IMG/VR virus record: IMGVR_UViG_3300045115_000108
Location: 1 to 22,730 of that record
Reading direction: 5' to 3' (one strand)
From: a virus
DNA: 22,730 nt
Below are positions 1-15,188 of this stretch, piece after piece. How positions within the stretch are numbered: the first letter of the stretch is position 1; every line of letters begins with the position of its first letter. A program made the position numbers and the translations under genes. Below the pieces are notes generated by a model. It was not told where the DNA came from. It did no database searches and was given only the letters and a program-made list of their open reading frames with translations.

Positions 1-1
1 A

Positions 2-2371
2 TTTTTCGGCAGACTGGTTTCTTCCCCGACGCCCGCTCCATCTCCCATCCCCCGTCCGTCGGAGGAATCGAAAAAAACGCAGCCACTCTCTCTCAACATC
101 ATTACCGGTCTTGATTTCAAAAGCATCGGACAATCCCTCGTTGCCGGAGCAAAAGCTCTTCCAAGTATGACAAAGCAGGCAAGCGGGATCGTTTTGGGAT
201 CGCTTGTTCAGACGCAGAAGGCGATCCAGGCATTTTTTGCTCCGAGCTCATCGAAAGTATTGAGCGCAATCACGAAAACGGCGTTTCCCTTCGCTTCCGT
301 TCCGGAAGCGGCACTTACCGAGGGAGAAAAAACGGCGGTAGCGCTTCGGGAAGAGGGAGCAAAAGAGGCGAGAGTGAAGCGAGAAGAATATCAGAAGGTT
401 GCAAAACCTTCAACCGGACTTCAGGGCATTCTGGAACTTGCCGCCTATAATCTTCCCCAGATGGCAGCAAGTACGGGACTTTCCGTTGCAACGGCAATCG
501 TCACCAAAAATCCCGCTCTTGCGGCATCCGTCGGTCTCTCGACATCCTATGGCATGGGAGCAAGTGAAGTCTATCAGGAGGCAAGGGATAATAATCTATC
601 CGATTCCCAGGCGATGCCGATTTCCGTCGCCGGCGGCATTATCATCGGGGCGCTTGACTTTCTTCCGTTGCAACGACTCATCAAAAAAGTCGAAGTCGTC
701 GATACCGTTAAAAAGAGCATCATAAAAAAGATAGCGGAGGGTATCGTCAGCACGGGAATTCAATCGGGATTCGAGGGGATCACGGAAAGCGCTCAGGAAC
801 TCGTCGGAGGAGCTATTGCGCGGACGTATAATGAAAACCGGGACATCTTCCAGGGAGTGACGGAGGCGGGACTCGTCGGGATGCTCTTGGGAGGCATCGG
901 AGAAGTGACGGTTTCCGGTCTCGTCGGGGTACTTGGAGAAAAAGCAACGCCGGAATCGGTTATCAAAGACGTGGAGGAGAAAACGCGTAAAGTTCTGGAG
1001 TCACCGACAGAGAAACAGCCGTCAGGCGTTCAGGAAGTTATCCGCACGTTTTCCACAAAAGACTTCACGCCGGATGAAGCAGCAACGATGGTTCTTGAAA
1101 ACAGCATGGAGGATACGGGCGCTGGAAAATCAATCATGAAGGCGGTTGCCCAGTCGACTAAGGATCAATTTATCCACATTGAGCCGACGGAAACGGGAGA
1201 TGGGTTATCCATAACCGTTACCAATGACCGAATGAATATCCCTTCAAAAAAAACTATAAGCGAAACGGGTGAGCCTATAACAAAGAAAGAGAAAATAGAG
1301 CAACCTGGCGCTCTTCCGATTCCTGAGGGGAAATCATATAGAATTGTTGATAAATCTGTGCAGGAGCGGCACATCCTTTCCACCAAGGAAACCCGTTCTC
1401 TTCAGTCTCTCATTACCGAAAAACTGACGGCAATCCGCGAATCATCAAAGTCTCCTTCGGATTTGCAGACCGGCATCGATGCGCTCTACGCGGAAGTTAT
1501 CGAAAAAGCGAAAAACGACAAGGTCGTACTCTCGTCTTTTCGGACGGCCATCAATAAGGAAATGTACACGCTTGCGGGAGCCACCGGAAACTACAAGGAG
1601 GCGTATGCAGCGCTCAAAACCATGCAGAAAGATCCGGAAATCGGTCCTGCTCTCGTTCGTATGGAAGAACTTATCTCTACGATAGACGAGAAACTCCTGA
1701 CGGCTCAGGAACCGACGGTTATCAAAGAAAAATCGCCGAAAGAGCAGCGGGGAGGCAAGGGAACGGGACCGGTAAAGCCGGTCAATGAACTTCCGGCAGG
1801 GACGGCAAAAAAAAAGCCGTCCAGGCTTTACCAAAGGGTCAAGGATTCACTGACCGAAGAATATGCGGCTAAAGACGTATCATACAATACGCTGAATCTC
1901 GAAGAACAGGCGCAAAAGGTTGCCGACTTGATCGAATCAGATCCAAAAAAGGCGGCAAGGATCGCATATGGCCTTGAGGAAACGCCTCCGGGAATGACCA
2001 GAAACGCTCTGGCAGTCGGGCTTGCCGAACTGGCGCGAACTCAAAACGACATGGGAAAGGCCGCAACGCTCTGGACTAAACTTTCGCTCCGTGCGACCCG
2101 ATTAGGCCAGGAAATCGTTTCCCTGCGGGGAAACTTAAGTGATACCGAGCCGTTCCATTACGTCAAACAGGTCGTAAATGACCGTCTGGAGCGCGTAGCG
2201 AGACAATGGAAGGATCTTGCCAAACAGCTTGATCTTGCCGAAAACGCGACGCTCATGGATCAGGCAGTGGCGATCATCAAGAGAAAAACGCAGGATCTGA
2301 AAGCGGAATTGTTGGGAAGATCACGGGATTTTCAAACGGCGCAGTCGATCATTAACGCATTGAAATGCTAA
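2..2371 (+). CDS. Large virion-associated 'polyvalent' protein, probable DNA-ejection protein (5'-truncated)
   Basis: The frame is open to the left window edge, so the gene starts upstream; 789 residues are visible and the internal ATG at 167 is not the true start. The visible part begins with a Pro/Ser-rich stretch. Alternating Gly/Ala-rich hydrophobic segments follow (about residues 135-185, 200-225 and 285-312) around the motif GFEGITESAQEL (about 256-267), a pattern common in very large phage virion proteins that line or cross the host envelope during DNA delivery. The C-terminal half is charged, helical and Lys/Glu-rich. The next gene follows at once and is also of this class, so the pair probably forms one ejection module. 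No enzymatic motif was recognised. The virion role is inferred from size, composition and position before the lysis genes. Confidence 0.8.
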   Translation, partial: FFGRLVSSPTPAPSPIPRPSEESKKTQPLSLNIITGLDFKSIGQSLVAGAKALPSMTKQASGIVLGSLVQTQKAIQAFFAPSSSKVLSAITKTAFPFASVPEAALTEGEKTAVALREEGAKEARVKREEYQKVAKPSTGLQGILELAAYNLPQMAASTGLSVATAIVTKNPALAASVGLSTSYGMGASEVYQEARDNNLSDSQAMPISVAGGIIIGALDFLPLQRLIKKVEVVDTVKKSIIKKIAEGIVSTGIQSGFEGITESAQELVGGAIARTYNENRDIFQGVTEAGLVGMLLGGIGEVTVSGLVGVLGEKATPESVIKDVEEKTRKVLESPTEKQPSGVQEVIRTFSTKDFTPDEAATMVLENSMEDTGAGKSIMKAVAQSTKDQFIHIEPTETGDGLSITVTNDRMNIPSKKTISETGEPITKKEKIEQPGALPIPEGKSYRIVDKSVQERHILSTKETRSLQSLITEKLTAIRESSKSPSDLQTGIDALYAEVIEKAKNDKVVLSSFRTAINKEMYTLAGATGNYKEAYAALKTMQKDPEIGPALVRMEELISTIDEKLLTAQEPTVIKEKSPKEQRGGKGTGPVKPVNELPAGTAKKKPSRLYQRVKDSLTEEYAAKDVSYNTLNLEEQAQKVADLIESDPKKAARIAYGLEETPPGMTRNALAVGLAELARTQNDMGKAATLWTKLSLRATRLGQEIVSLRGNLSDTEPFHYVKQVVNDRLERVARQWKDLAKQLDLAENATLMDQAVAIIKRKTQDLKAELLGRSRDFQTAQSIINALKC

Positions 2372-2373
2372 TT

Positions 2374-4659
2374 ATGGCAAAAGCATTCTGCATACCGCAA
2401 CAGCTCGTCGATAAACTGGTTGCCGGCATCAAATCCGGAGACGTCATCGGGGATATCGCCAAGCTTGCCGAAATGACCAGCGAAGGACGGCGGGGCGCAT
2501 TTGAGAAGTACGTGAGTAAGGACGTAGCCCGGGAGATCAATCTCGGATTTGAAAAAGCCATCATATCGGAGCAGAAAAACGCCCTTACACTCTGGGCAAA
2601 AAATACATTCACGGCGGAGGCGAAAAAAAAAGGCCACTATAAGGATGTTATTGCTAAAATTGAATCTCTTGATAGTCATGGCGTCCTTACGCCGGAAACT
2701 GCTGATGTTTTCCTGGAAGATCTTGTTGCAGATCGACTCGGAGCAAGTATTACCGCGGATGAGGCAGCCGGAATCGTAGATCGGACCAACCGGCTCAAGG
2801 AACTGTCCGGGCGACCGGCCAACGAATTCGGTCTTCCGGATATGGACTATTGGAAAGCCAGGAGGGATCTTGACAGCTATCTTGAATCCCTCACGCCGTC
2901 TCCCGCGCTCAAAGTCGCAACGTCCGTCGTCGCCCGAGGGACGATGCTGTTTTCCCTCAAATCCCCGATCGTCAACATCGAATCAAACACAGTTAATGCG
3001 ATTACGGAGGCGACAGCTCGAAGGATCGAAGCGATGCGTACCAATAATCTCTTTCCCGGAGGATGGAACAATTCCCATGCACTTCCGTATATGCAATTCG
3101 TCAATGACGTTTATGCCAAAACCGGCTATGATCTGACCCGCATGACGACCCTTGAGATGGCAAAAAAACGCCTGGGGGAAGAGATCGTCCATGCCCAGGG
3201 GCCGGGGAAAGTTCGGGCGCTCGGACGGTTCTATACGGACGTGGTATTCAACAAACTCATGACGGCTCCAGATGTCGCGTTTGCATCCATGCACTTTGTC
3301 GATGCGGCAAACATAAAATCTGCGCTCATCGCCCGAGCCGAAGGACTCAGGGGAGAAGCGATGAACAAGCGGGTAGAGCAGATCTTCCTTGATGCCACAA
3401 AAATCAATCCGGAGACCAAAGAAGGACGAAGCGTTCGGGACATGGCAATTCTCGAAGCGCAGCGGGGAACATACACCAACAAAACCAACTACGCCGATAC
3501 GTCCCTTGCTATCCGCAGAGTCCTCAATAAGGCGTCCGGGGATCTTCGTGTTGGAGATCAGCTCATGCCGTTTGTCCAGGTGCCGGCAAACGTCGTCGGG
3601 ACGACAGTTGATTACTCCGGCGTTCTCCTGCCCCTGGAGACGATCAGCCGGGCAAAAGACGCGCTCAATGCCAAGGGAAGGGGAGACAAGGAGGCATTCA
3701 TCAACGCATTTGACCGAACGTTTCTGCGGAAGGTAACGCGGGCGGGTTTGGGAATCACGATTGCCTTCATCGCCTCCTTGTGGTTTGAACCGGACGATTT
3801 CATCGGTGAATACCCGATCAGTTCATCGGAGCGCGAGCTTCTGAAACTCAAGCGAGCAACGACTAATTCGGTCAAAATCGGCAATAAGTGGATATCCCTT
3901 GACTATCTCGGTCCCCTGGGTGCTCCGTTCGTCGGATTCATGTATGCCAAAAAGTACGGAAAGACGCCGATATCGTCCCTTCTGGCCTATGGAGGAGGCG
4001 TCGGTCTCCAGATAGCCCGAACGCCCGGCTTTAAGCAATTCTACGACGTCTATGGGGCATTTCAGAGTCTCCGACCAGACAGGGCGACGCCTGACGATAT
4101 CAAGGAGAGTGTCTTCAACTATATCGTCGACATGGCCCGATCCCGTACAATTCCCGCTTTCGTCGCCGATCTGGCAAAGGGACTGGATAAATACGAACGT
4201 CAGACGGACTCGGCAGCGGACCGTATTCTTCTTTCGATCCCCGTCGTCCGCCAGGCGATGCTTAAGGAAAAACTCAACGTCTTCGGAGAATACGTCGAGG
4301 GAGAAGGCTTCTGGTCATCGCTCTTTGCCGGCTCCCGGATGAAGACGCAGAAAGAGGACGTCGTCATCGATGAGCTCTCCCGCCTTGCCCAATCGGGGAA
4401 CCTTCCGGCCATTACCGACGTTTCCCGGACGTCTCCAAGGGCCAAGCGGCTTGAGCAGCAGATCGGAAAAGAGCAGTTCCGGGAGTTTTATATCGAATTC
4501 GGAAAGGAGTTTAAGGAGGGAATTGCCGAGATCGTCCAGAGCGACGATTATCTTTCCGTTGGAGACGATGAGAGAAGCGACGAAATCAACAAATTCAAAC
4601 GAAAACTCTTTGATGATAAACTGGAAGAGTGGGGCTATGAGCCCGAAGAGAAAGAATAG
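2374..4659 (+). CDS. Large virion-associated polyvalent protein, probable internal virion/ejection protein
   Basis: 761 residues from ATG 2374 (MAKAFCIPQQ); an in-frame ATG at 2365 overlaps the upstream stop and is the alternative start. No strong Shine-Dalgarno (SD) is visible, so translation may be coupled to the upstream gene. The segment MLFSLKSPIVNIESNTVNAI (about residues 191-210) resembles the conserved core of phage 'large polyvalent protein' families, in which a hydrophobic strand leads into an SN-rich helix. Farther on lie RGTYTNKTNY, a PFVQVPANVVGTT segment and a hydrophobic helix near 3740-3790 (GLGITIAFIASLWF). The C-terminus is acidic and helical. The likely role is as an internal head or tail-tube protein released at infection; no catalytic residues were recognised. 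Confidence 0.8.
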   Translation: MAKAFCIPQQLVDKLVAGIKSGDVIGDIAKLAEMTSEGRRGAFEKYVSKDVAREINLGFEKAIISEQKNALTLWAKNTFTAEAKKKGHYKDVIAKIESLDSHGVLTPETADVFLEDLVADRLGASITADEAAGIVDRTNRLKELSGRPANEFGLPDMDYWKARRDLDSYLESLTPSPALKVATSVVARGTMLFSLKSPIVNIESNTVNAITEATARRIEAMRTNNLFPGGWNNSHALPYMQFVNDVYAKTGYDLTRMTTLEMAKKRLGEEIVHAQGPGKVRALGRFYTDVVFNKLMTAPDVAFASMHFVDAANIKSALIARAEGLRGEAMNKRVEQIFLDATKINPETKEGRSVRDMAILEAQRGTYTNKTNYADTSLAIRRVLNKASGDLRVGDQLMPFVQVPANVVGTTVDYSGVLLPLETISRAKDALNAKGRGDKEAFINAFDRTFLRKVTRAGLGITIAFIASLWFEPDDFIGEYPISSSERELLKLKRATTNSVKIGNKWISLDYLGPLGAPFVGFMYAKKYGKTPISSLLAYGGGVGLQIARTPGFKQFYDVYGAFQSLRPDRATPDDIKESVFNYIVDMARSRTIPAFVADLAKGLDKYERQTDSAADRILLSIPVVRQAMLKEKLNVFGEYVEGEGFWSSLFAGSRMKTQKEDVVIDELSRLAQSGNLPAITDVSRTSPRAKRLEQQIGKEQFREFYIEFGKEFKEGIAEIVQSDDYLSVGDDERSDEINKFKRKLFDDKLEEWGYEPEEKE

Positions 4660-4667
4660 GGGGCAAC

Positions 4668-4970
4668 ATGACATTTTTTGATCCATCATGGATGAGTCAC
4701 ACGATGCAGACAGGGCTTATCGATCTAGGTCTTGTCATTTTGGGCTTCGTCGTTGGGAATGTGCGGTCATGGAAAACGCCGCTTCTTTTTACCATGTTCC
4801 TGATGCGTCTTGTGAAGTGGTGGCTGGAAACCCATCCACATGGCAAGGAAGCGGCAAAAAAAACGAATCTCGATGAGGAATTCAGGAGGAGGTTTTCAGG
4901 AGAACTTGCTGAGCTGGAGAAGAAGTTTGCCGTTGACAAGAAGGGAAATAACGACCATACTAGGCATTGA
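4668..4970 (+). CDS. Small membrane protein, candidate holin
   Basis: 100 residues; start supported by a G-rich SD (AGGGGG) a few bases before ATG 4668. Two hydrophobic stretches (about 16-33, LIDLGLVILGFVVGNV, and about 38-52, PLLFTMFLMRLVKWW) are followed by a charged C-terminal helix rich in Lys, Glu and Arg. The size, two membrane segments, charged tail and place directly before a cell-wall hydrolase gene fit a holin or other lysis-cassette membrane protein. No family was recognised. A tail-completion membrane protein is the alternative. Confidence 0.65.
   Translation: MTFFDPSWMSHTMQTGLIDLGLVILGFVVGNVRSWKTPLLFTMFLMRLVKWWLETHPHGKEAAKKTNLDEEFRRRFSGELAELEKKFAVDKKGNNDHTRH
4933..4961 (+). promoter_or_regulatory. 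Possible sigma70-type promoter for the hydrolase gene
   Basis: TTGACA (4933-4938), 17-nt spacer, CATACT (4956-4961), inside the 3' end of the candidate holin gene. Transcription would begin near 4968, about 7 nt before ATG 4975. A chance match inside coding sequence is quite possible. Confidence 0.3.
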
Positions 4971-4974
4971 GATT

Positions 4975-5847
4975 ATGGCAGAACCGGTTTTACTATCCCA
5001 GCGAGACCGACGATGGAAAGACACCCAGCTCGGTACGTCACAAACGACGATAGGAACCCACGGATGCACGATTACGGCGCTCTCCATGCTTTTTGGGCTG
5101 ACGCCGGATTTCGTCAATGAGCGCCTCAAGAGAGTCGATGGATATAAAGACGGAAACCTCATTATCTGGAAGAAAATCGAGGAGGCGCTTCCGGGAGTAA
5201 AGTTCGTCTGGCGCTATTATGCGTATGACAACGCGGTCGCAAAAGAAAATATCCCCTGCATGGTAGAGGTCTCTGGTGCCGCCATTGGCGGTGACAGACA
5301 TTGGGTACTTTTTGTCGGCAATCAAAAAATGTACGATCCCTGGGATGGGAAAGAAAAATCGACGCTTGCCTACGGGATGCCCCTTGGCTTCGTCGTTTTG
5401 GAAGGAGCATATATGCCGGAACCTGAACAATCCAGCGAATGTCTGGTGCCTAATACGCCCGAGTGGCGTCAAAAATACGAGGAATTGGTCGATAAAGCAA
5501 CGAAGTACGATGCCCTGGTGGCAAAAGGATACGGCAGCGTCGACCTTATTGAAGAAAAAATGGGAGAAAAAGCAAATGAGGCGCGCAACGATGGAATGAA
5601 AAAAGGAGTCATAACGGCAGATCAGCTGTCGGAAATCCTGGACGGCCTCTCCGGTATCGCCCGGGCATCCCAGCTTGTTATGGAGGCCGTAGAACACCTC
5701 CAGGCGGTTCTGATAGCAAAACCTGAGGAGCGCGGGGAAGCGAAGGCCGCAAAGGTCAAAAAAACGTCGACAGAGAACTCCGGAATGCAGTGGTTGATGA
5801 ATCTTGTCGGAGTGTTTTCTCAGAAAAAGGGGGTGAAGAACGCATGA
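4975..5847 (+). CDS. C39-like papain-fold cysteine peptidase/amidase, candidate endolysin
   Basis: 290 residues from ATG 4975, 4 nt after the upstream stop; a longer frame from 4840 would overlap that gene by 130 bases and adds no domain. The N-terminal domain fits the C39-like (Peptidase_C39_2) fold: catalytic Cys31 in THGCTITALSML, His109 in GDRHWVLFVG and Asp121 in MYDPWDG. The opening LLSQRDRRWKDTQLG is also typical. After about residue 150 the protein becomes Glu/Lys/Ala-rich, helical and possibly coiled-coil, ending near a short hydrophobic stretch (MQWLMNLVGVF). Position between small membrane proteins suggests a peptidoglycan cross-link or amide-cleaving lysis enzyme. A virion protease or a wall-remodelling role is the alternative. 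The stop overlaps the next ATG as ATGA. Confidence 0.72.
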   Translation: MAEPVLLSQRDRRWKDTQLGTSQTTIGTHGCTITALSMLFGLTPDFVNERLKRVDGYKDGNLIIWKKIEEALPGVKFVWRYYAYDNAVAKENIPCMVEVSGAAIGGDRHWVLFVGNQKMYDPWDGKEKSTLAYGMPLGFVVLEGAYMPEPEQSSECLVPNTPEWRQKYEELVDKATKYDALVAKGYGSVDLIEEKMGEKANEARNDGMKKGVITADQLSEILDGLSGIARASQLVMEAVEHLQAVLIAKPEERGEAKAAKVKKTSTENSGMQWLMNLVGVFSQKKGVKNA

Positions 5848-6092
5848 GTAAGATTTTTGGTGTCCCGTTGGTATTGTTTGCCCTGATTTTTGCGATCGTC
5901 GTGCCCGTTGTGATCGGTGAGGTTCTTATTTTCCGGGCGGTTGACGGCGTAGAACGAGAAGTGAAGAATGTGCAGCTTATGGTTGCGCCGGCTCCGGAAG
6001 CGGAAATTGAAGAAATTGTAGAACCGACCGCAACACCGACGAAAAAGGTGTTACCGGTTAAATCAGCAACACCGTCGGCAGAAGAGGAATAA
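5844..6092 (+). CDS. Single-pass membrane protein with Pro/Thr-rich tail
   Basis: 82 residues; ATG 5844 overlaps the upstream stop (ATGA) and follows a GGGGGTGAAG SD region, so it is preferred to an upstream in-frame start at 5790. One strong membrane helix (about 8-31, PLVLFALIFAIVVPVVIGEV) precedes an acidic, Pro/Ala/Thr-rich tail (PTATPTKK, residues 61-68). The shape, one anchor and an extended low-complexity tail in a lysis cassette, suits a spanin-like or anti-holin-like component, but there is no lipobox or coiled coil to make that firm. The same anchor plus Thr-Pro linker design recurs at 6942-7442 and 9600-10241. Confidence 0.7.
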   Translation: MSKIFGVPLVLFALIFAIVVPVVIGEVLIFRAVDGVEREVKNVQLMVAPAPEAEIEEIVEPTATPTKKVLPVKSATPSAEEE

Positions 6093-6097
6093 GACAT

Positions 6098-6433
6098 ATG
6101 GAACCCATGACGCTGGGCGCAAGCATCATTTCGGGAGCGCTTCAACTTATCGGTATTATCATCCCTCCGCTCGTGGAGGTTATCAATAAAGACGTCAAAA
6201 GCCAAAACGAGCGGTTCCTCGTGACGGTGGTTGTTTGTTTTCTTGCTGCCGTTTTTTTGAAATGGAACGATATCGTCTACGGTTCTTTTGCGGACGTCCT
6301 GACATCATTCGGCATCGTTTTCACCGAGAGTCAGGTTGTCTACAAACTGTACTTTCGGGATTCGGCGATCCGCTATAAAATTCAGGAAAAAATCGGGGTT
6401 GAAGAAGATCCTCCAACAGGAGAGGGACAGTAA
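6098..6433 (+). CDS. Membrane protein, candidate holin
   Basis: 111 residues from ATG 6098, with GAGGAATAAG upstream as a modest SD. Hydrophobic segments lie at about 6-27 (LGASIISGALQLIGIIIPPL) and 42-55 (VTVVVCFLAAVFL), with a weaker one near 64-75. The C-terminus is charged and hydrophilic (KIQEKIGVEEDPPTGEGQ). Size and topology fit phage holins, and it closes the lysis cassette directly before a terminator. With 4668-4970 there are two holin-like genes, so one may be a holin and the other an antiholin or a tail-related membrane protein; the sequence does not decide. Confidence 0.68.
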   Translation: MEPMTLGASIISGALQLIGIIIPPLVEVINKDVKSQNERFLVTVVVCFLAAVFLKWNDIVYGSFADVLTSFGIVFTESQVVYKLYFRDSAIRYKIQEKIGVEEDPPTGEGQ

Positions 6434-6523: not shown

Positions 6524-6566
6524 CAAGCCAATCGTGTCAAATTGAACACGAGAAAGGAGTACCTCT

Positions 6567-6653
6567 ATGGTACGGAAATTATGGGCAGTCTTTCGCGCCT
6601 GGGTTTCGAAGATTACCAGTCGTATCTTTCATCGGACTGGTGGAAAAGCCTAA
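6567..6653 (+). CDS. Cationic amphipathic 28-residue micro-ORF
   Basis: The best ribosome-binding site of the region, AAAGGAG (6553-6559), is followed 7 nt later by ATG 6567. That ATG opens a 28-codon frame different from the HNH frame (MVRKLWAVFRAWVSKITSRI, then eight more residues, stop at 6651). The peptide has about eight Lys/Arg, no acidic residue, and regularly spaced Trp, Phe and Ile, as in membrane-active amphipathic helices. It may be a leader peptide coupling translation to the HNH gene, a functional small peptide, or chance. It overlaps the HNH start region. Confidence 0.4.
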   Translation: MVRKLWAVFRAWVSKITSRIFHRTGGKA

Positions 6654-6952
6654 CGAACAGACTTATTATTCAGAATCTTAAGTCGCGTTGTTTTATCTGC
6701 GGACGAAAATACCCCAAAAGTCTCTTAGTGCTGCACCACGTCAGCTACGACCGTCTTGGATATGAACGACTCATCCGGGACGTATTCGTTCTTTGTCATG
6801 ACCACCATGAAAACGCGCACTTTGCTGGATTTTTTCATTCGAGGCTAAATCTTGATGAAATGACGCTCAGACGCCGCGTCTATTTTCTTATGTATACATA
6901 TCGTATACGGAATTTTCTGTTTGGAAGTCTATTGAGGTTTATTATTTCTTGA
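6581..6952 (+). CDS. HNH endonuclease
   Basis: 123 residues from ATG 6581; an in-frame TTG at 6542 would add 13 residues but has no SD. The phage HNH pattern is clear: N-terminal YQSYLSSDWW (about 12-21), a CFIC zinc pair (Cys37, Cys40), the HH of LVLHHVSYDRLGYE (His52, His53) and the closing LCHDHHENAH (Cys72, His75, His76). Such free-standing HNH enzymes act in packaging or as homing-type nickases. Here the gene lies far from the terminase genes, next to the accessory block. Its 3' end overlaps the convergent minus-strand gene by 11 bases. The C-terminus is basic and hydrophobic. Confidence 0.85.
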   Translation: MGSLSRLGFEDYQSYLSSDWWKSLTNRLIIQNLKSRCFICGRKYPKSLLVLHHVSYDRLGYERLIRDVFVLCHDHHENAHFAGFFHSRLNLDEMTLRRRVYFLMYTYRIRNFLFGSLLRFIIS

Positions 6953-7442
6953 CTATTGTATTGAAATATTGATCGATGATGGCGTTTTGATTGCCACACG
7001 TTTTTAAGGACGATTTGAATTCCTCAAGTTTACCGGTTATCGTTTTGTCTTCCAGGGCAATCCTTGACTCAAGGAGAGATTGACATGCCTCTTTTTCCGA
7101 CTCGTTCGTGCAGCCCTCCACTTCCAATCTCGCCGCTTTTATTTTTATCAGACCGTCGTATGCTTCTTTTGCCGCGGGAAGCATGGCCTGTATCTCCAAT
7201 TCGCATGAAGAAATCATCGGTGTTGGAGTCGCAATGGGGGTGGGTGATGCATATCCTGCTTCAATGGCCTGTTGTCCGGAGAGAGACGCTTCCTGGACGT
7301 TCTCCATGGCTATAATCGGAACTTGTATTGTCGGAGAAATTGCTTCTTTTTCCGTCTGACCTAGAAGAGAACCGGCTGCAAGAATTCCTGCCGTTAAGAG
7401 TGCCACAATGCTCTTCGTGATTTTTTCAATAACATCAAACAT
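6942..7442 (-). CDS. Membrane-anchored protein with Thr-Pro linker and four-Cys domain (moron-like)
   Basis: The only minus-strand gene, 166 residues from ATG at 7442. A GTG at 7460 is in frame, but it lies upstream of a TATAAT box whose predicted transcript starts near 7445, so ATG 7442 is preferred. Features: one N-terminal membrane helix (about 8-28), a polar region, a Thr-Pro linker (ASPTPIATPTP, 65-75), then a helical domain with Cys80, Cys111, Cys120 and Cys149, a likely pair of disulfides outside the membrane. Opposite orientation, its own promoter and placement between phage modules are typical of a 'moron' expressed independently. A host-surface or superinfection role is possible but unproven. 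No family was recognised. Confidence 0.72.
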   Translation of the reverse strand: MFDVIEKITKSIVALLTAGILAAGSLLGQTEKEAISPTIQVPIIAMENVQEASLSGQQAIEAGYASPTPIATPTPMISSCELEIQAMLPAAKEAYDGLIKIKAARLEVEGCTNESEKEACQSLLESRIALEDKTITGKLEEFKSSLKTCGNQNAIIDQYFNTIVKK

Positions 7443-7451
7443 GGCATCCGT

Positions 7452-7479
7452 ATTATACACCGGAAAGGCAAAAAATCAA
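7452..7479 (-). promoter_or_regulatory. Promoter for the minus-strand gene
   Basis: Read on the minus strand: TTGATT (7479-7474), 16-nt spacer, perfect TATAAT (7457-7452). Transcription would start about 7445, only about 3 nt before ATG 7442, so the mRNA should be almost leaderless. The -10 differs from the TA(C/G)N(C/G)T class used elsewhere, suggesting recognition by the normal host sigma factor. Confidence 0.65.
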
Positions 7480-7624
7480 AAATTAGAGACAAAAGTGAGG
7501 AAATTTATGCCTAGTCTATTTCTCTCCCTTTTTGGCTAGACCCCCTTATGACGGCGCAAAAAATTATCTTGTACGACGTGTCGCGTCTCTTCCCCTTTTC
7601 CCACCTTCGCCCATTTTTTCCCAC
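7460..7624. other. Intergenic stretch with pyrimidine-rich tract
   Basis: No convincing gene. Plus-strand bases 7583-7624 are mostly C and T (runs such as CTCTTCCCCTTTTCCCACC) and end directly at the TTGACA of the small-RNA promoter. A short inverted repeat GTCTA/TAGAC lies around 7515-7540. The function is unknown. Confidence 0.4.
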
Positions 7625-7654
7625 TTGACAGAGTGTGCATATCAGTTCTACAGT
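7625..7654 (+). promoter_or_regulatory. Promoter (TTGACA-N18-TACAGT) for small RNA
   Basis: TTGACA 7625-7630, 18-nt spacer, TACAGT 7649-7654. This matches the window's shared promoter class. The transcript is expected to begin near 7661, directly at a set of hairpins with no good start codon. Confidence 0.65.
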
Positions 7655-7660
7655 GATAGT

Positions 7661-7795
7661 ACGTCCGGATCATTCCGGTTGCGCCTACGGGAGCGGCGCG
7701 CTATAATCAAAAGGCAACAAACCTATTTGGTATCGTGGAGCACAAAATAGCTCCCAAGCCTTTTGAGGCTCCGCGATATTGAATAGGTTTTTTTA
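7661..7795 (+). ncRNA. Candidate ~135-nt noncoding RNA with switch-like terminator
   Basis: Its own promoter ends at 7654 and a strong terminator ends at 7794, with no credible ORF between. Hairpin 1 is CCGGA/TCCGG with a 4-nt loop (7665-7678). Hairpin 2 is GCGCC/GGCGC (7681-7699). Hairpin 3 is the terminator (7719-7790). TCAAAAGGC (7707-7715) is perfectly complementary to GCCTTTTGA (7758-7766) in the loop of hairpin 3, giving a pseudoknot or, because the 22-bp stem is long and the linker only 3 nt, a competing fold. GGAG 7737-7740 can also pair with CTCC 7751-7754. A trans-acting phage small RNA or an attenuator for the downstream region are the two readings. No known RNA family was recognised. 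Confidence 0.6.
7719..7794 (+). terminator. Terminator with 22-bp helix
   Basis: 7719-7740 pairs along its whole length with 7769-7790: AAACCTATT/AATAGGTTT, three G-U wobbles, then TATCGTGGAG/CTCCGCGATA with one more wobble. T7 follows at 7788-7794. The 28-nt loop carries the 9-nt segment complementary to 7707-7715. Confidence 0.8.
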
Positions 7796-7989
7796 TGGAA
7801 ACTCATCAACCAGCACTTTGTACCCTCCCTGATTGTCTCGGGTATTATCCTCCACCCTGTTACGTCTCTAGGGCTGATGTGAGCCGTTCTAGGTCATTGT
7901 ACGGGCGCATAATATGTCACTGGGATATGAAGCTCATTGAGACTGGAAAACGAGAACATTCCGGGGAATACGCAAAAAAATTTCATTGA
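7795..7989 (+). CDS. Possible small Cys/His protein
   Basis: 64 codons from ATG 7795, directly after the terminator T-run, with only AGG (7785-7787, inside the terminator helix) as SD. The product has CTLPDC, a further Cys at 22 and an ICHWD motif near residue 42, then a charged tail (ETGKREHSGEYAKKFH). It could be a zinc-binding mini-protein like others in this block. Against it are the poor start context and the fact that the same DNA also folds into hairpins, for example GGCT-GATGTG-AGCC flanked by CTAG repeats near 7868-7893. If real, translation would depend on read-through of the terminator. Confidence 0.35.
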   Translation: METHQPALCTLPDCLGYYPPPCYVSRADVSRSRSLYGRIICHWDMKLIETGKREHSGEYAKKFH

Positions 7990-8410
7990 CTGCTGCATGA
8001 TGGGTTTGCTTGGCGCGGGCAGGCACCAACGATCCCATCATGGAACAGTCAATCACTGTTCCGGGGATAAAGAAGCCATCATAATGGCAAGCGCGGGATA
8101 GGAGACCGTGTAGGGGCTGAAAACGAACCGCATCCCGGCCCATACTACACAAAGATTGGAACGGCTTGGGAATGACCTAGAGGGGTTTAGGTTTGGGCCT
8201 TCACCCGTTTAGGCGAAGTCGCCGTTTATTTCAAACAGTCCGTCTCCGGCTGGGGAACGCAATACCACCGTTGAGGGGAAGAGGAGAAAGTAGAACAGAG
8301 AGCCTATACCTCCGTGGGTATTTAAGGCAGACAATGTAGTGGTAAAGACAAAAACGGCGAGCCGGACAAAATCCGGAAGAGAAAAAACTATTTACGCCGC
8401 TTCTCCCCTC
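7985..8410 (+). ncRNA. Candidate large structured RNA (~430 nt)
   Basis: There is no convincing ORF but an unusual density of perfect helices. ATTGACTG 7985-7992 pairs with CAGTCAAT 8046-8053, enclosing CATGATGGG 7996-8004 with CCCATCATG 8034-8042. GGAACAG 8042-8048 can instead pair with CTGTTCC 8056-8062. GCCAT-CATA-ATGGC forms at 8075-8088. CGGGAT 8094-8099/ATCCCG 8132-8137 crosses GTGTAG 8108-8113/CTACAC 8145-8150, a pseudoknot. AACGGC 8160-8165 pairs with GCCGTT 8221-8226 around ACCTA/TAGGT 8175-8192. A bulged hairpin occupies 8302-8328. CGGCG 8355-8359/CGCCG 8395-8399 encloses CCGGA-CAAAA-TCCGG. GAGGGGA 8273-8279 pairs with TCCCCTC 8404-8410. Size and phage context recall ornate phage RNAs such as GOLLD or ROOL, but no match was recognised. 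No promoter was found directly upstream. Confidence 0.5.
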
Positions 8411-8560
8411 CCTCCGGACTCCAATGAAAATAGATCCAAAGACAGAGGATGTAGAAATATACCATCCCCATTATTGCTCCTTTGTTCAATGTGCATATGC
8501 CGTCATTGTGAATGCTATCCGTGGAATTCGTCAATAGGGCGGTTTGACGCGCTTTCTCTC
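8411..8560. other. Intergenic, no clear gene
   Basis: It holds a small hairpin (GGATG/CATCC around 8448-8466). The plus- and minus-strand frames through it have unnatural, low-complexity products. Nothing else is supportable up to the promoter at 8564. Confidence 0.4.
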
Positions 8561-8563
8561 CCC

Positions 8564-8593
8564 TTGACATAACCGCTTGCCGTTTGATAGCGT
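8564..8593 (+). promoter_or_regulatory. Leaderless-type promoter (TTGACA-N18-TAGCGT)
   Basis: TTGACA 8564-8569, 18-nt spacer, TAGCGT 8588-8593, then 6 nt to ATG 8600, so transcription should begin at or next to the start codon. The spacer contains AACCGC-TT-GCCGTT, a near-dyad also found in the promoter at 9564. Confidence 0.72.
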
Positions 8594-8599
8594 GGAAGT

Positions 8600-8824
8600 A
8601 TGACCACTGAGACATTCACGGACCGGAACGGTCACACGATCGAAGTAGGAAAGCATATGCTCATGAGTCAGTACGGCGACCGGTTTTATGTTGTTGACGA
8701 CGTCGTCCTGGGAATTTCGATCCTTAATGTCCGGACCGGAACGCTAGAGAAGCTGACCGGGGACATTGCCTCAGAGCTTTTGATTGCCGCAATTATTGTT
8801 GAAACGATCGGAGGAGGAACGTGA
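8600..8824 (+). CDS. Hypothetical small protein, first gene of accessory operon
   Basis: 74 residues; the start is fixed by the promoter whose -10 ends 6 nt before ATG 8600, implying a leaderless mRNA. The N-terminal half alternates polar and hydrophobic residues like a small beta-barrel (KHMLMSQYGDRFYVVDDVV). The C-terminus is an aliphatic helix (ELLIAAIIVETI). No family was recognised. The 3' end carries GGAGGAGG, the SD of the next frame, whose GTG overlaps this stop. First of a run of small genes through 9547. Confidence 0.6.
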   Translation: MTTETFTDRNGHTIEVGKHMLMSQYGDRFYVVDDVVLGISILNVRTGTLEKLTGDIASELLIAAIIVETIGGGT

Positions 8825-9547: not shown

Positions 9548-9563
9548 CCACGAAATTGACCCC

Positions 9564-9593
9564 TTGACAAAACCGCAAGCCGTTTAGTAGTGT
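9564..9593 (+). promoter_or_regulatory. Leaderless-type promoter (TTGACA-N18-TAGTGT)
   Basis: TTGACA 9564-9569, 18-nt spacer, TAGTGT 9588-9593, then 6 nt to ATG 9600. The block 9561-9602 matches 8561-8602 at 34 of 42 positions, including the spacer dyad AACCGC-AA-GCCGTT, so both operons are probably co-regulated. Confidence 0.72.
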
Positions 9594-9599
9594 GGATAT

Positions 9600-10241
9600 A
9601 TGGACTACAGAACACAGCGGATGTTGAGACGGAAACAGATTCAACGAAGACGCCTTGCAGCTATTAAGCGGATGGCGATCTGGGATTACCTCTATGTCGG
9701 ATTCAGCGCATTCGTTCTTCTGTCAGCCTCATCCGGAATCGTGAGTATAGGAAAGTCCGCAGTTTCACGCCTTGCCTCTTTTCATATTCCACCGGTCGTC
9801 ATCGTCAAGGCAGCTGCGATTCCTTCTCCTACGCCGACGCCAACTCCGAAAGAAGACGAACGGATAAGAAAACTCCGTACCTATCTTTCCTCGAAACATT
9901 CCCCGCTTGCCGAATATGCTTCGCTTATTGTTTCCGAAGCAGACAAAAATGACATCGGATGGACCAAGGTCGCGGCAATTTCCGGAAAGGAATCATCATA
10001 CGGCAAACGGATTCCGGGTGGATCATACAACGCCTGGGGAATCGGAGGAAGCTCATTTCATTATTTTTCCTCTTGGGAAGAAGGTATCCGATATGTGTCC
10101 CGGATGCTCGGGGAGAAGTACAAATGGAACGAGAATAAGGGAATCCAGGCGAAGTATTGTCCGGATTCCGACGGGTGTGCGAAGGACTGGACGAATACGG
10201 TGACACAGTTTAGCTTTGACATTTTGTATACGGAGGAATAG
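9600..10241 (+). CDS. Membrane-anchored lysozyme/transglycosylase-like wall hydrolase
   Basis: 213 residues; start fixed by the leaderless-type promoter. A basic cytoplasmic N-terminus (RRKQIQRRRL), a membrane helix (about 31-50) and a Thr-Pro linker (SPTPTPTPKE, 76-85) lead into a glucosaminidase/lytic-transglycosylase-like domain. Probable catalytic Glu131 lies in AAISGKESSYG, followed by NAWGIGG (144-150) and FSSWEEGIRY (156-165), the usual signature of that fold. A Cys pair (187, 193) may form a disulfide. The enzyme would sit outside the membrane, tethered by the linker. That suits peptidoglycan remodelling or superinfection control rather than bulk lysis, since it is far from the lysis cassette. 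Confidence 0.78.
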   Translation: MDYRTQRMLRRKQIQRRRLAAIKRMAIWDYLYVGFSAFVLLSASSGIVSIGKSAVSRLASFHIPPVVIVKAAAIPSPTPTPTPKEDERIRKLRTYLSSKHSPLAEYASLIVSEADKNDIGWTKVAAISGKESSYGKRIPGGSYNAWGIGGSSFHYFSSWEEGIRYVSRMLGEKYKWNENKGIQAKYCPDSDGCAKDWTNTVTQFSFDILYTEE

Positions 10242-11438: not shown

Positions 11439-11822
11439 ATGGAACAAAAACGCATCCAACGAAAACGCAAAAAGGGGTGGAAGATGCCGTTAAATACGGT
11501 ATACGTTGGACGCGGATCGTTCTGGGGAAACCCTTTCCGCGTAGGAACTCCGGTAACTAACGGCGCTCTGGCTATCGTGACATTCAATCTGGACGCATTC
11601 AGCTATAGGAAATTTAGGGATTCCGGTGGGTATCCGGTCCCTGACATCAAAACCTGCCTGTCTTTCTACCAGAAATGGCTGACCTGGAGACTTGCTGCCG
11701 GTATGGGGAAGGACAAAGGATTGGAACGGATCAAAGAGCTTAATGGAAAAAATTTGTGTTGCTGGTGTCCGCTCGATAAGCCATGCCATGCCGATATATT
11801 ATTGAAAATTGCGAATCATTAG
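11439..11822 (+). CDS. DUF4326-family protein
   Basis: 127 residues. The N-terminus KKGWKMPLNTVYVGRGSFWG, the following NPF, and the C-terminus CCWCPLDKPCHADIL (about 107-121) are the defining pattern of DUF4326, widespread in phages. The Cys/His cluster at the end (Cys107, 108, 110, 115, His116) looks metal- or active-site-like. The biochemical role of the family is not established to my knowledge; a nucleotide- or nucleic-acid-related role has been suspected. Length matches the family. It follows the preceding small gene by 3 nt. Confidence 0.85.
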   Translation: MEQKRIQRKRKKGWKMPLNTVYVGRGSFWGNPFRVGTPVTNGALAIVTFNLDAFSYRKFRDSGGYPVPDIKTCLSFYQKWLTWRLAAGMGKDKGLERIKELNGKNLCCWCPLDKPCHADILLKIANH

Positions 11823-14503: not shown

Positions 14504-14920
14504 ATGGATATATTTTATGTAGTACCTGTCGGAAAACCACGAATGACAAGATCGGACGCCTGGAATTTGCGTCCTGCTGTCGCTTCCTATTGGCATTATC
14601 GGGATTCCATACGCCTCGCCGCACAAAAAATCCGTTTTCAGCTTAAGAGCTCCATAGACATAGTTTTTCTTCTCCCCATGCCGACGTCCTGGAGCAGGAA
14701 GAAAAAAGACGCGATGCGCGCATTCCCTCACCAGCAGGTCCCGGACACCGATAATCTTCTCAAGGCTTTCTGCGATGCGCTTTCGGATAATGATAGCCAC
14801 ATCTGGAATCAGCGGGGCAGCAAATTCTGGTGGGATGTCGGCGCGATCATCGTCCGGGAGAATACGGATGAGCAGTATTCGATCAAGCCGGAACAGATGG
14901 GGGTGAAAGCGAATGTCTAA
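14504..14920 (+). CDS. rusA: RusA-like Holliday junction resolvase
   Basis: 138 residues from ATG 14504; an in-frame TTG at 14492 is less likely. The N-terminus FYVVPVGKPRMTRSDAW and the core VPDTDNLLKAFCDALSDND (79-97) match RusA, which resolves four-way junctions as a Mg-dependent dimer. Asp81, Asp83 and Lys87 align with the E. coli residues Asp70, Asp72 and Lys76. The third acid, the second Asp of the usual 'LDD' (Asp91 in E. coli), falls in IWNQRG and is not conserved. Asp97 or Asp111 might replace it, or the enzyme may be weakened. Presence beside a Rad52-like gene supports a recombination and packaging-substrate role. Confidence 0.82.
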   Translation: MDIFYVVPVGKPRMTRSDAWNLRPAVASYWHYRDSIRLAAQKIRFQLKSSIDIVFLLPMPTSWSRKKKDAMRAFPHQQVPDTDNLLKAFCDALSDNDSHIWNQRGSKFWWDVGAIIVRENTDEQYSIKPEQMGVKANV

Positions 14921-15188
14921 AAAAAGCGAGTACATCGACATCAGCGAGAGTTCAGCCAAAGTCAGCGCGCTTCAGGTTGATATCATGCTGTTCGTCGATG
15001 TCTGGGTGAAACGGAATAATACGCCGGTTCCGAGGCAGGAAATCGTCAATGTCATGAAGAAGAAGGGAAAAACGAAGGACCAGATAGAACATGCGTTGAA
15101 TCTTCTTCTTCGACTGGGATATGTCCGAAAAGCGGTGACTATTTCCAACAAAACGTCCTATGTTCAGCTTCGCCGGGTCAATATATAA
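14913..15188 (+). CDS. Winged-helix-like DNA-binding protein
   Basis: 91 residues, overlapping the RusA-like gene by 8 bases. The middle (VPRQEIVNVMKKKGKTKDQI, then EHALNLLLRLGYVRKA) and a beta end (NKTSYVQLRRV) fit a winged helix such as MarR/DUF-type phage regulators. It may regulate late genes or act with the resolvase. There is no cofactor or metal motif. Confidence 0.65.
   Translation: MSKKSEYIDISESSAKVSALQVDIMLFVDVWVKRNNTPVPRQEIVNVMKKKGKTKDQIEHALNLLLRLGYVRKAVTISNKTSYVQLRRVNI

Follow-up and report, generated by a model that had tools for sequence, protein, structure and literature searches.

A candidate structured noncoding RNA in a cassette at the late/early junction of an uncultivated phage

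IMG/VR record IMGVR_UViG_3300045115_000108 is a 22.7-kb uncultivated phage sequence without end repeats, and the window analysed here is this whole stretch of 22,730 nt. Close to the point where its late genes give way to the early ones, the segment 7985–8410 shows many potential helices, and the original prediction took it for a candidate new large ornate phage RNA reminiscent of GOLLD and ROOL. Published members of these families are large, ornate and rich in pseudoknots, and GOLLD is often over 800 nt long (PMC12286853). The question raised by this locus is whether a structured noncoding RNA is encoded there and, if so, of which kind.

Setting and fold of the segment

The late genes, which encode long proteins, occupy positions 1–6433; the terminase, portal and capsid genes, placed after the early genes, are putative assignments made through the relatives described below, and the terminase is at most 42% identical to those of named phages. 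A small HNH-endonuclease-like protein (6542–6952) is encoded between the late genes and the region of interest, followed by the only long minus-strand ORF near the late/early junction (6942–7460), which has a promoter-like site of its own and encodes a product that is hydrophobic in an N-terminal stretch and matches no family. A gap without clear genes extends from 7460 to 8600 and contains the segment 7985–8410; on its 3' side are small early genes, including those of Rad52-like and RusA-like proteins. A DUF4326 protein is also encoded in the early region, at 11439–11822. The absence of a credible gene, part of the original prediction, was confirmed for 7990–8410, where the ORFs receive little codon-bias support; protein coding through this segment was rejected on these grounds.

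The predicted helices are present at the places claimed, either in the MFE fold or directly readable in the sequence. Helices of at least 5 bp in the MFE fold include 7985–8053, 8108–8150, 8114–8141, 8159–8227 and 8273–8410. The first of these is a long plus-strand hairpin with arms of 8 bp and 9 bp (z −5.8 for 7985–8062), and it is excluded when the GGAACAG/CTGTTCC hairpin at 8042–8062 is formed, in agreement with the two mutually exclusive folds that had been proposed. The proposed crossing pair was likewise read from the sequence, between CGGGAT (8094–8099) and ATCCCG (8132–8137), around GTGTAG/CTACAC of 8108–8150; the plus strand of 8085–8150 holds TGGCAAGC and a predicted H-type pseudoknot, composed of 8094–8099/8132–8137 and 8108–8117/8138–8150.

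The fold energy of 7985–8410 is below that of shuffled sequences, with z values of about −3 to −3.75 (in the run that gave z −3.15, none of 100 shuffles was as low). The minus strand folds just as stably (z −3.28), and for this reason the fold energy does not tell the strand; the plus strand is assigned to the candidate RNA from the upstream promoter-like site and from the relatives. The energy excess is concentrated in the hairpin 7985–8053, given that z is −1.9 for 8063–8410 (5/100 shuffles) and +0.1, like shuffles, for 8181–8410. The helices are real, but their density is less exceptional than had been supposed: those with 5 bp or more number 14, versus 10.6 in shuffles, and 6 of 100 shuffles reach 14. 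When 302 windows of 150 nt were scanned over the whole record, the lowest energy was that of 7651–7800 (z −5.75), which falls outside the predicted segment, and the next was that of 7951–8100 (z −4.08).

A cassette shared with distant relatives

Using the late protein encoded at 2365–4659 as the query, three scans of IMG/VR yielded relatives that are about 41–54% identical in a late protein. Four of these distant relatives share the cassette, located in each at the corresponding late/early junction, which makes five phages with the one studied here. Its order is a TTGAC box, a T-tailed hairpin, approximately 300–500 nt of largely noncoding sequence, and then the early genes; the strong hairpin lies within about 160 nt of the TTGAC box, and its tail is T6–T8. 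The cassettes are found in G003 (a sequence of 40,447 bp with end repeats, also represented by L032 and L044; L032 7199–7600), L043 (13934–14632), L042 (14537–15130) and L081 (17535–18010), and in the present phage the TTGAC promoter, T-tailed hairpin, noncoding stretch and early genes are all present at this junction. Only distant relatives were recovered in the searches that were run: none was detected when the stretch was compared with INPHARED phages by BLASTN, when the neighbouring proteins 8600–8824 and 6942–7460 served as queries, or in GTDB genomes.

The structural gene of L049 has 77% DNA identity with that of L042, yet L049 is devoid of the cassette, which for this reason can be regarded as an accessory element. 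The place that the segment occupies is the late/early junction and not a random accessory site. At its own junction (14827–15050), L049 shows a different terminator-like hairpin, and L052, another relative without the cassette, has at the equivalent junction a sequence that by eye resembles two tRNA genes (14580–14790, minus strand). Genes composed of short tandem repeats (PQG, CTFNTG, KAGxGI and SGxSG types) are common in this group of phages, for instance at L032 7956–8210, L087 15540–15860, L081 19870–20460 and L053 14700–17100. Two Manatee Spring phages have related terminases and a different gene order.

In the present phage, the cassette begins with a promoter-like site on the plus strand, P1 (7625–7654), formed by TTGACA, an 18-base spacer and TACAGT, with 10 of 12 matches to the consensus; a TTGAC box occupies the corresponding position in L032, L042, L043 and L081. 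Downstream of P1, and upstream of the segment originally singled out, the plus-strand hairpin 7719–7794, with a 23-bp stem and a T7 tail, is the most stable structure of the record (z −8.85 for 7716–7793, a value attained by none of 100 shuffles). Its G+C-containing stem followed by a T run corresponds to a putative intrinsic terminator.

Immediately upstream of this hairpin, the nine bases of strand A, TCAAAAGGC (7707–7715, plus strand), are complementary to strand B, GCCTTTTGA (7758–7766, plus strand), which is located in the hairpin loop, so that an alternative or pseudoknot pairing may be formed. Complementarity between an upstream strand and the loop was observed in four of the five phages, with 9 bp here, 10 in L081, 7 in G003 (L044/L032) and 6 in L043; L042 has a plain terminator without it. 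In a 1.15-Mb scan for this geometry, the lowest duplex energies were those of this phage (−35.0), L043 (−34.1) and L081 (−31.0); the G003 duplex (−25.5) ranked lower, yet it is among the cleanest. When a stem has around 20 bp and few bases separate it from strand A, the A–B pairing would probably be incompatible with the full stem. A P4-like model, in which the P1 leader pairs with the downstream stretch, was rejected because the complementarity is not above chance: the longest one found is of 9 nt (7752/8163), a length reached in 21% of shuffles, and no enrichment was detected in the relatives.

Directly after the T run of the hairpin comes ATGG in this phage, L042 and L043, and GTGG in G003; among the loci scanned, the pattern T≥6[AG]TGG has only six plus-strand occurrences, four of them in the cassettes. 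Here a possible small ORF of 64 aa (7795–7989, plus strand) starts directly after T7. Codon bias gave p 0.116 for this ORF and p <0.002 for its equivalents in L043 and L042, and 7795–7989 is not unusually folded (z +0.9). The stretch between the terminator and the RNA may encode a short peptide, with codon-bias support in L043 and L042 and, weakly, in this phage.

A second plus-strand promoter-like site, P2 (8564–8593; TTGACA...TTTGATAGCGT), directly precedes the early genes, and P2-like sites occur at positions 7596 and 10544 of L032 and near position 14603 of L043. This early promoter-like element occurs twice in the early region of the present phage, at 8560–8602 and 9560–9602 (81% over 43 bp), and its spacer contains short inverted repeats, as also observed at L032 7596 and 10544; it may represent an operator.

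Comparison with the EGFOA locus of a relative

In L042, the genomic place equivalent to 7985–8410 is occupied by a match to the Rfam family RF02955 ("EGFOA RNA") at 14794–14920, with 50.8 bits against a gathering cut-off of 37.7. This family is typed in Rfam as an sRNA gene; no paper describing it was found in the literature collection searched, and BLASTN of its consensus against INPHARED phages gave just one chance-level match of 33 bases. By its folding and its synteny with the EGFOA RNA of L042, the plus strand of 7985–8410 is a candidate structured noncoding RNA. Nevertheless, the EGFOA model does not match the present phage at E up to 5 on 7600–8620, or at E up to 1 on the whole record, and consequently this RNA was not classed as EGFOA; G003, L043 and L081 do not reach the score of the model either.

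In a part that the Rfam model does not span, a 3' motif is shared with the relatives (here CGTTTAT...GGGGAA-N3-AATACC, plus strand, 8223–8266; in L042, 15024–15070). The gapped word GGGGAA-N(2–4)-AATACC is common to this phage, L042 and L043, and none of 1000 shuffled triples has a gapped 6+6 word in common. The one hexamer that all five stretches contain is AATACC, and in approximately 11% of shuffle trials some hexamer is likewise shared by all five. On the plus strand, CGTTTA[TG]...AATACC appears only in the cassettes of this phage, L042, G003 and L081, and its weight is limited, since the pattern was chosen after looking. A layout similar to that of EGFOA, with an upstream strand, a stem and an inner hairpin whose loop pairs back, can be drawn at 8085–8150 and, in G003, at L044 7354–7410; in a descriptor test of this core, the score is reached by 21% of shuffles for this phage and by 10% for L044.

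As a whole, the five stretches resemble one another only faintly in sequence, with shared-word counts only mildly above those of shuffles. In local pairwise alignments of the five RNAs, p was 0.017 for this phage and G003, and 0.040 for L044 and L081; the other pairs were uninformative. The fold energies of the whole stretches gave z −3.0 for this phage, −3.5 for L043, −2.2 to −2.7 for L042 and −2.3 for L081, and the G003 stretch is no more stable than shuffles (z about −0.1; −0.13).

Competing explanations and significance

The recurrence of the cassette in four distant relatives, one of them with EGFOA, indicates that the locus is probably a genuine gene for a phage noncoding RNA rather than for a cage-forming RNA of the GOLLD or ROOL type. 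As to its nature, we propose, with about an even chance of being correct, that 7985–8410 is the structured part of a noncoding-RNA cassette, a divergent counterpart of the EGFOA locus that is made as a read-through product and acts in trans. RNA polymerase would start at P1, and strand A would pair with loop strand B during transcription, ahead of the synthesis of the terminator's 3' arm, so that termination could be delayed. P1 would in this way yield a short RNA of about 130 nt plus some read-through, giving here an RNA of about 800 nt that holds the possible small ORF and the EGFOA-like RNA; the latter would be a stable noncoding RNA acting in trans during infection. The position, the order of the elements, the hairpin, the loop complementarity in four of five phages, the Rfam match in L042 and the shared 3' motif can all be read from the sequences, and the most economical reading of them would be a single cassette at a single place, with a fast-diverging RNA part that is EGFOA in one phage and, in the others, a relative too distant for the model to recognise. 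In favour of an EGFOA-like cassette are its recurrence in five phages, the EGFOA RNA of L042, the loop complementarity, the 3' motif and the fold energy in four of five; on the opposite side are the failure of the EGFOA model here, the faint similarity, a descriptor test that is not significant, a G003 fold like those of shuffles, the lack of loop complementarity in L042 and the lack of the cassette in L049.

The leading alternative is that the stretch serves the early operon as a cis-acting leader, in which the hairpin attenuates transcription from P1, the downstream fold controls read-through, processing or translation, and no free RNA is produced. The terminator close to the promoter, the alternative pairings and the fact that in each of the five phages the stretch separates P1 from the early genes suit such a leader, and the CI RNA leader of phage P4 and the Q-controlled terminator of lambda also combine a promoter, a close terminator, an untranslated leader and alternative pairings. 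However, pairing here is from the loop to an upstream strand and not by the seqA/B/C scheme of P4, no integrase was matched among the tested proteins of this phage (or among 20 tested proteins of G003), and leader–downstream complementarity is not above chance. In addition, the early genes are preceded by a separate promoter-like site, P2, which speaks against the leader without being decisive, and the folded part of L042 belongs to a family typed as an sRNA gene and not as a leader; we regard this explanation as possible but not favoured. Ordinary intergenic DNA, with a terminator-like hairpin, promoters, one more strong hairpin and no functional RNA in 8063–8410, would agree with an excess stability limited to two hairpins, with the shuffle-like energy of 8181–8410 and with the faint similarity among relatives; it is rather unlikely in view of EGFOA at the same place in L042, the shared gapped motif and the long gene-free stretches at one place in compact genomes. 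That palindromes of a DNA element, such as a replication origin or a packaging or partition site, were misread as RNA helices is improbable: both strands fold equally well, the site is a junction between operons and the short shared motifs could be bound by proteins, but a plus-strand promoter and a T-tailed hairpin lie upstream, and EGFOA is an RNA family.

An RNA of the GOLLD or ROOL type that assembles into multimeric cages is hardly to be expected here. The likeness is a general one, that of a phage-encoded, folded noncoding stretch; there is no match in sequence or structure, and most of the excess fold energy belongs to one hairpin. GOLLD and ROOL are usually, not obligatorily, found near tRNA genes, and the 22,730-nt stretch contains none. 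The comparison with the GOLLD, ROOL and other Rfam covariance models that had been suggested was carried out: no family matched the record, and none reached even E up to 5 on 7600–8620, for which reason this kinship is unsupported and GOLLD, ROOL and all other Rfam families were rejected for this phage. What survives of the new large ornate RNA is a structured noncoding RNA, supported by the synteny of the cassette and by EGFOA in L042.

Returning to the noncoding-RNA cassette, we tentatively consider a wider possibility, namely a fast-diverging family of phage RNA cassettes with a promoter, a pseudoknot-gated terminator, a small ORF and a folded RNA with CGTTTA...AATACC, of which EGFOA would be the one corner recognisable by sequence, and in which the pairing of A with the loop would be an undescribed gating of an intrinsic terminator. 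If the proposed counterpart of EGFOA is real, this orphan RNA family could be assigned a place in the genome, at the late/early junction in a group of uncultivated phages, together with an upstream element that recurs. It would also suggest that such RNAs change beyond sequence recognition while the cassette and its position stay, and that covariance models would therefore undercount them.
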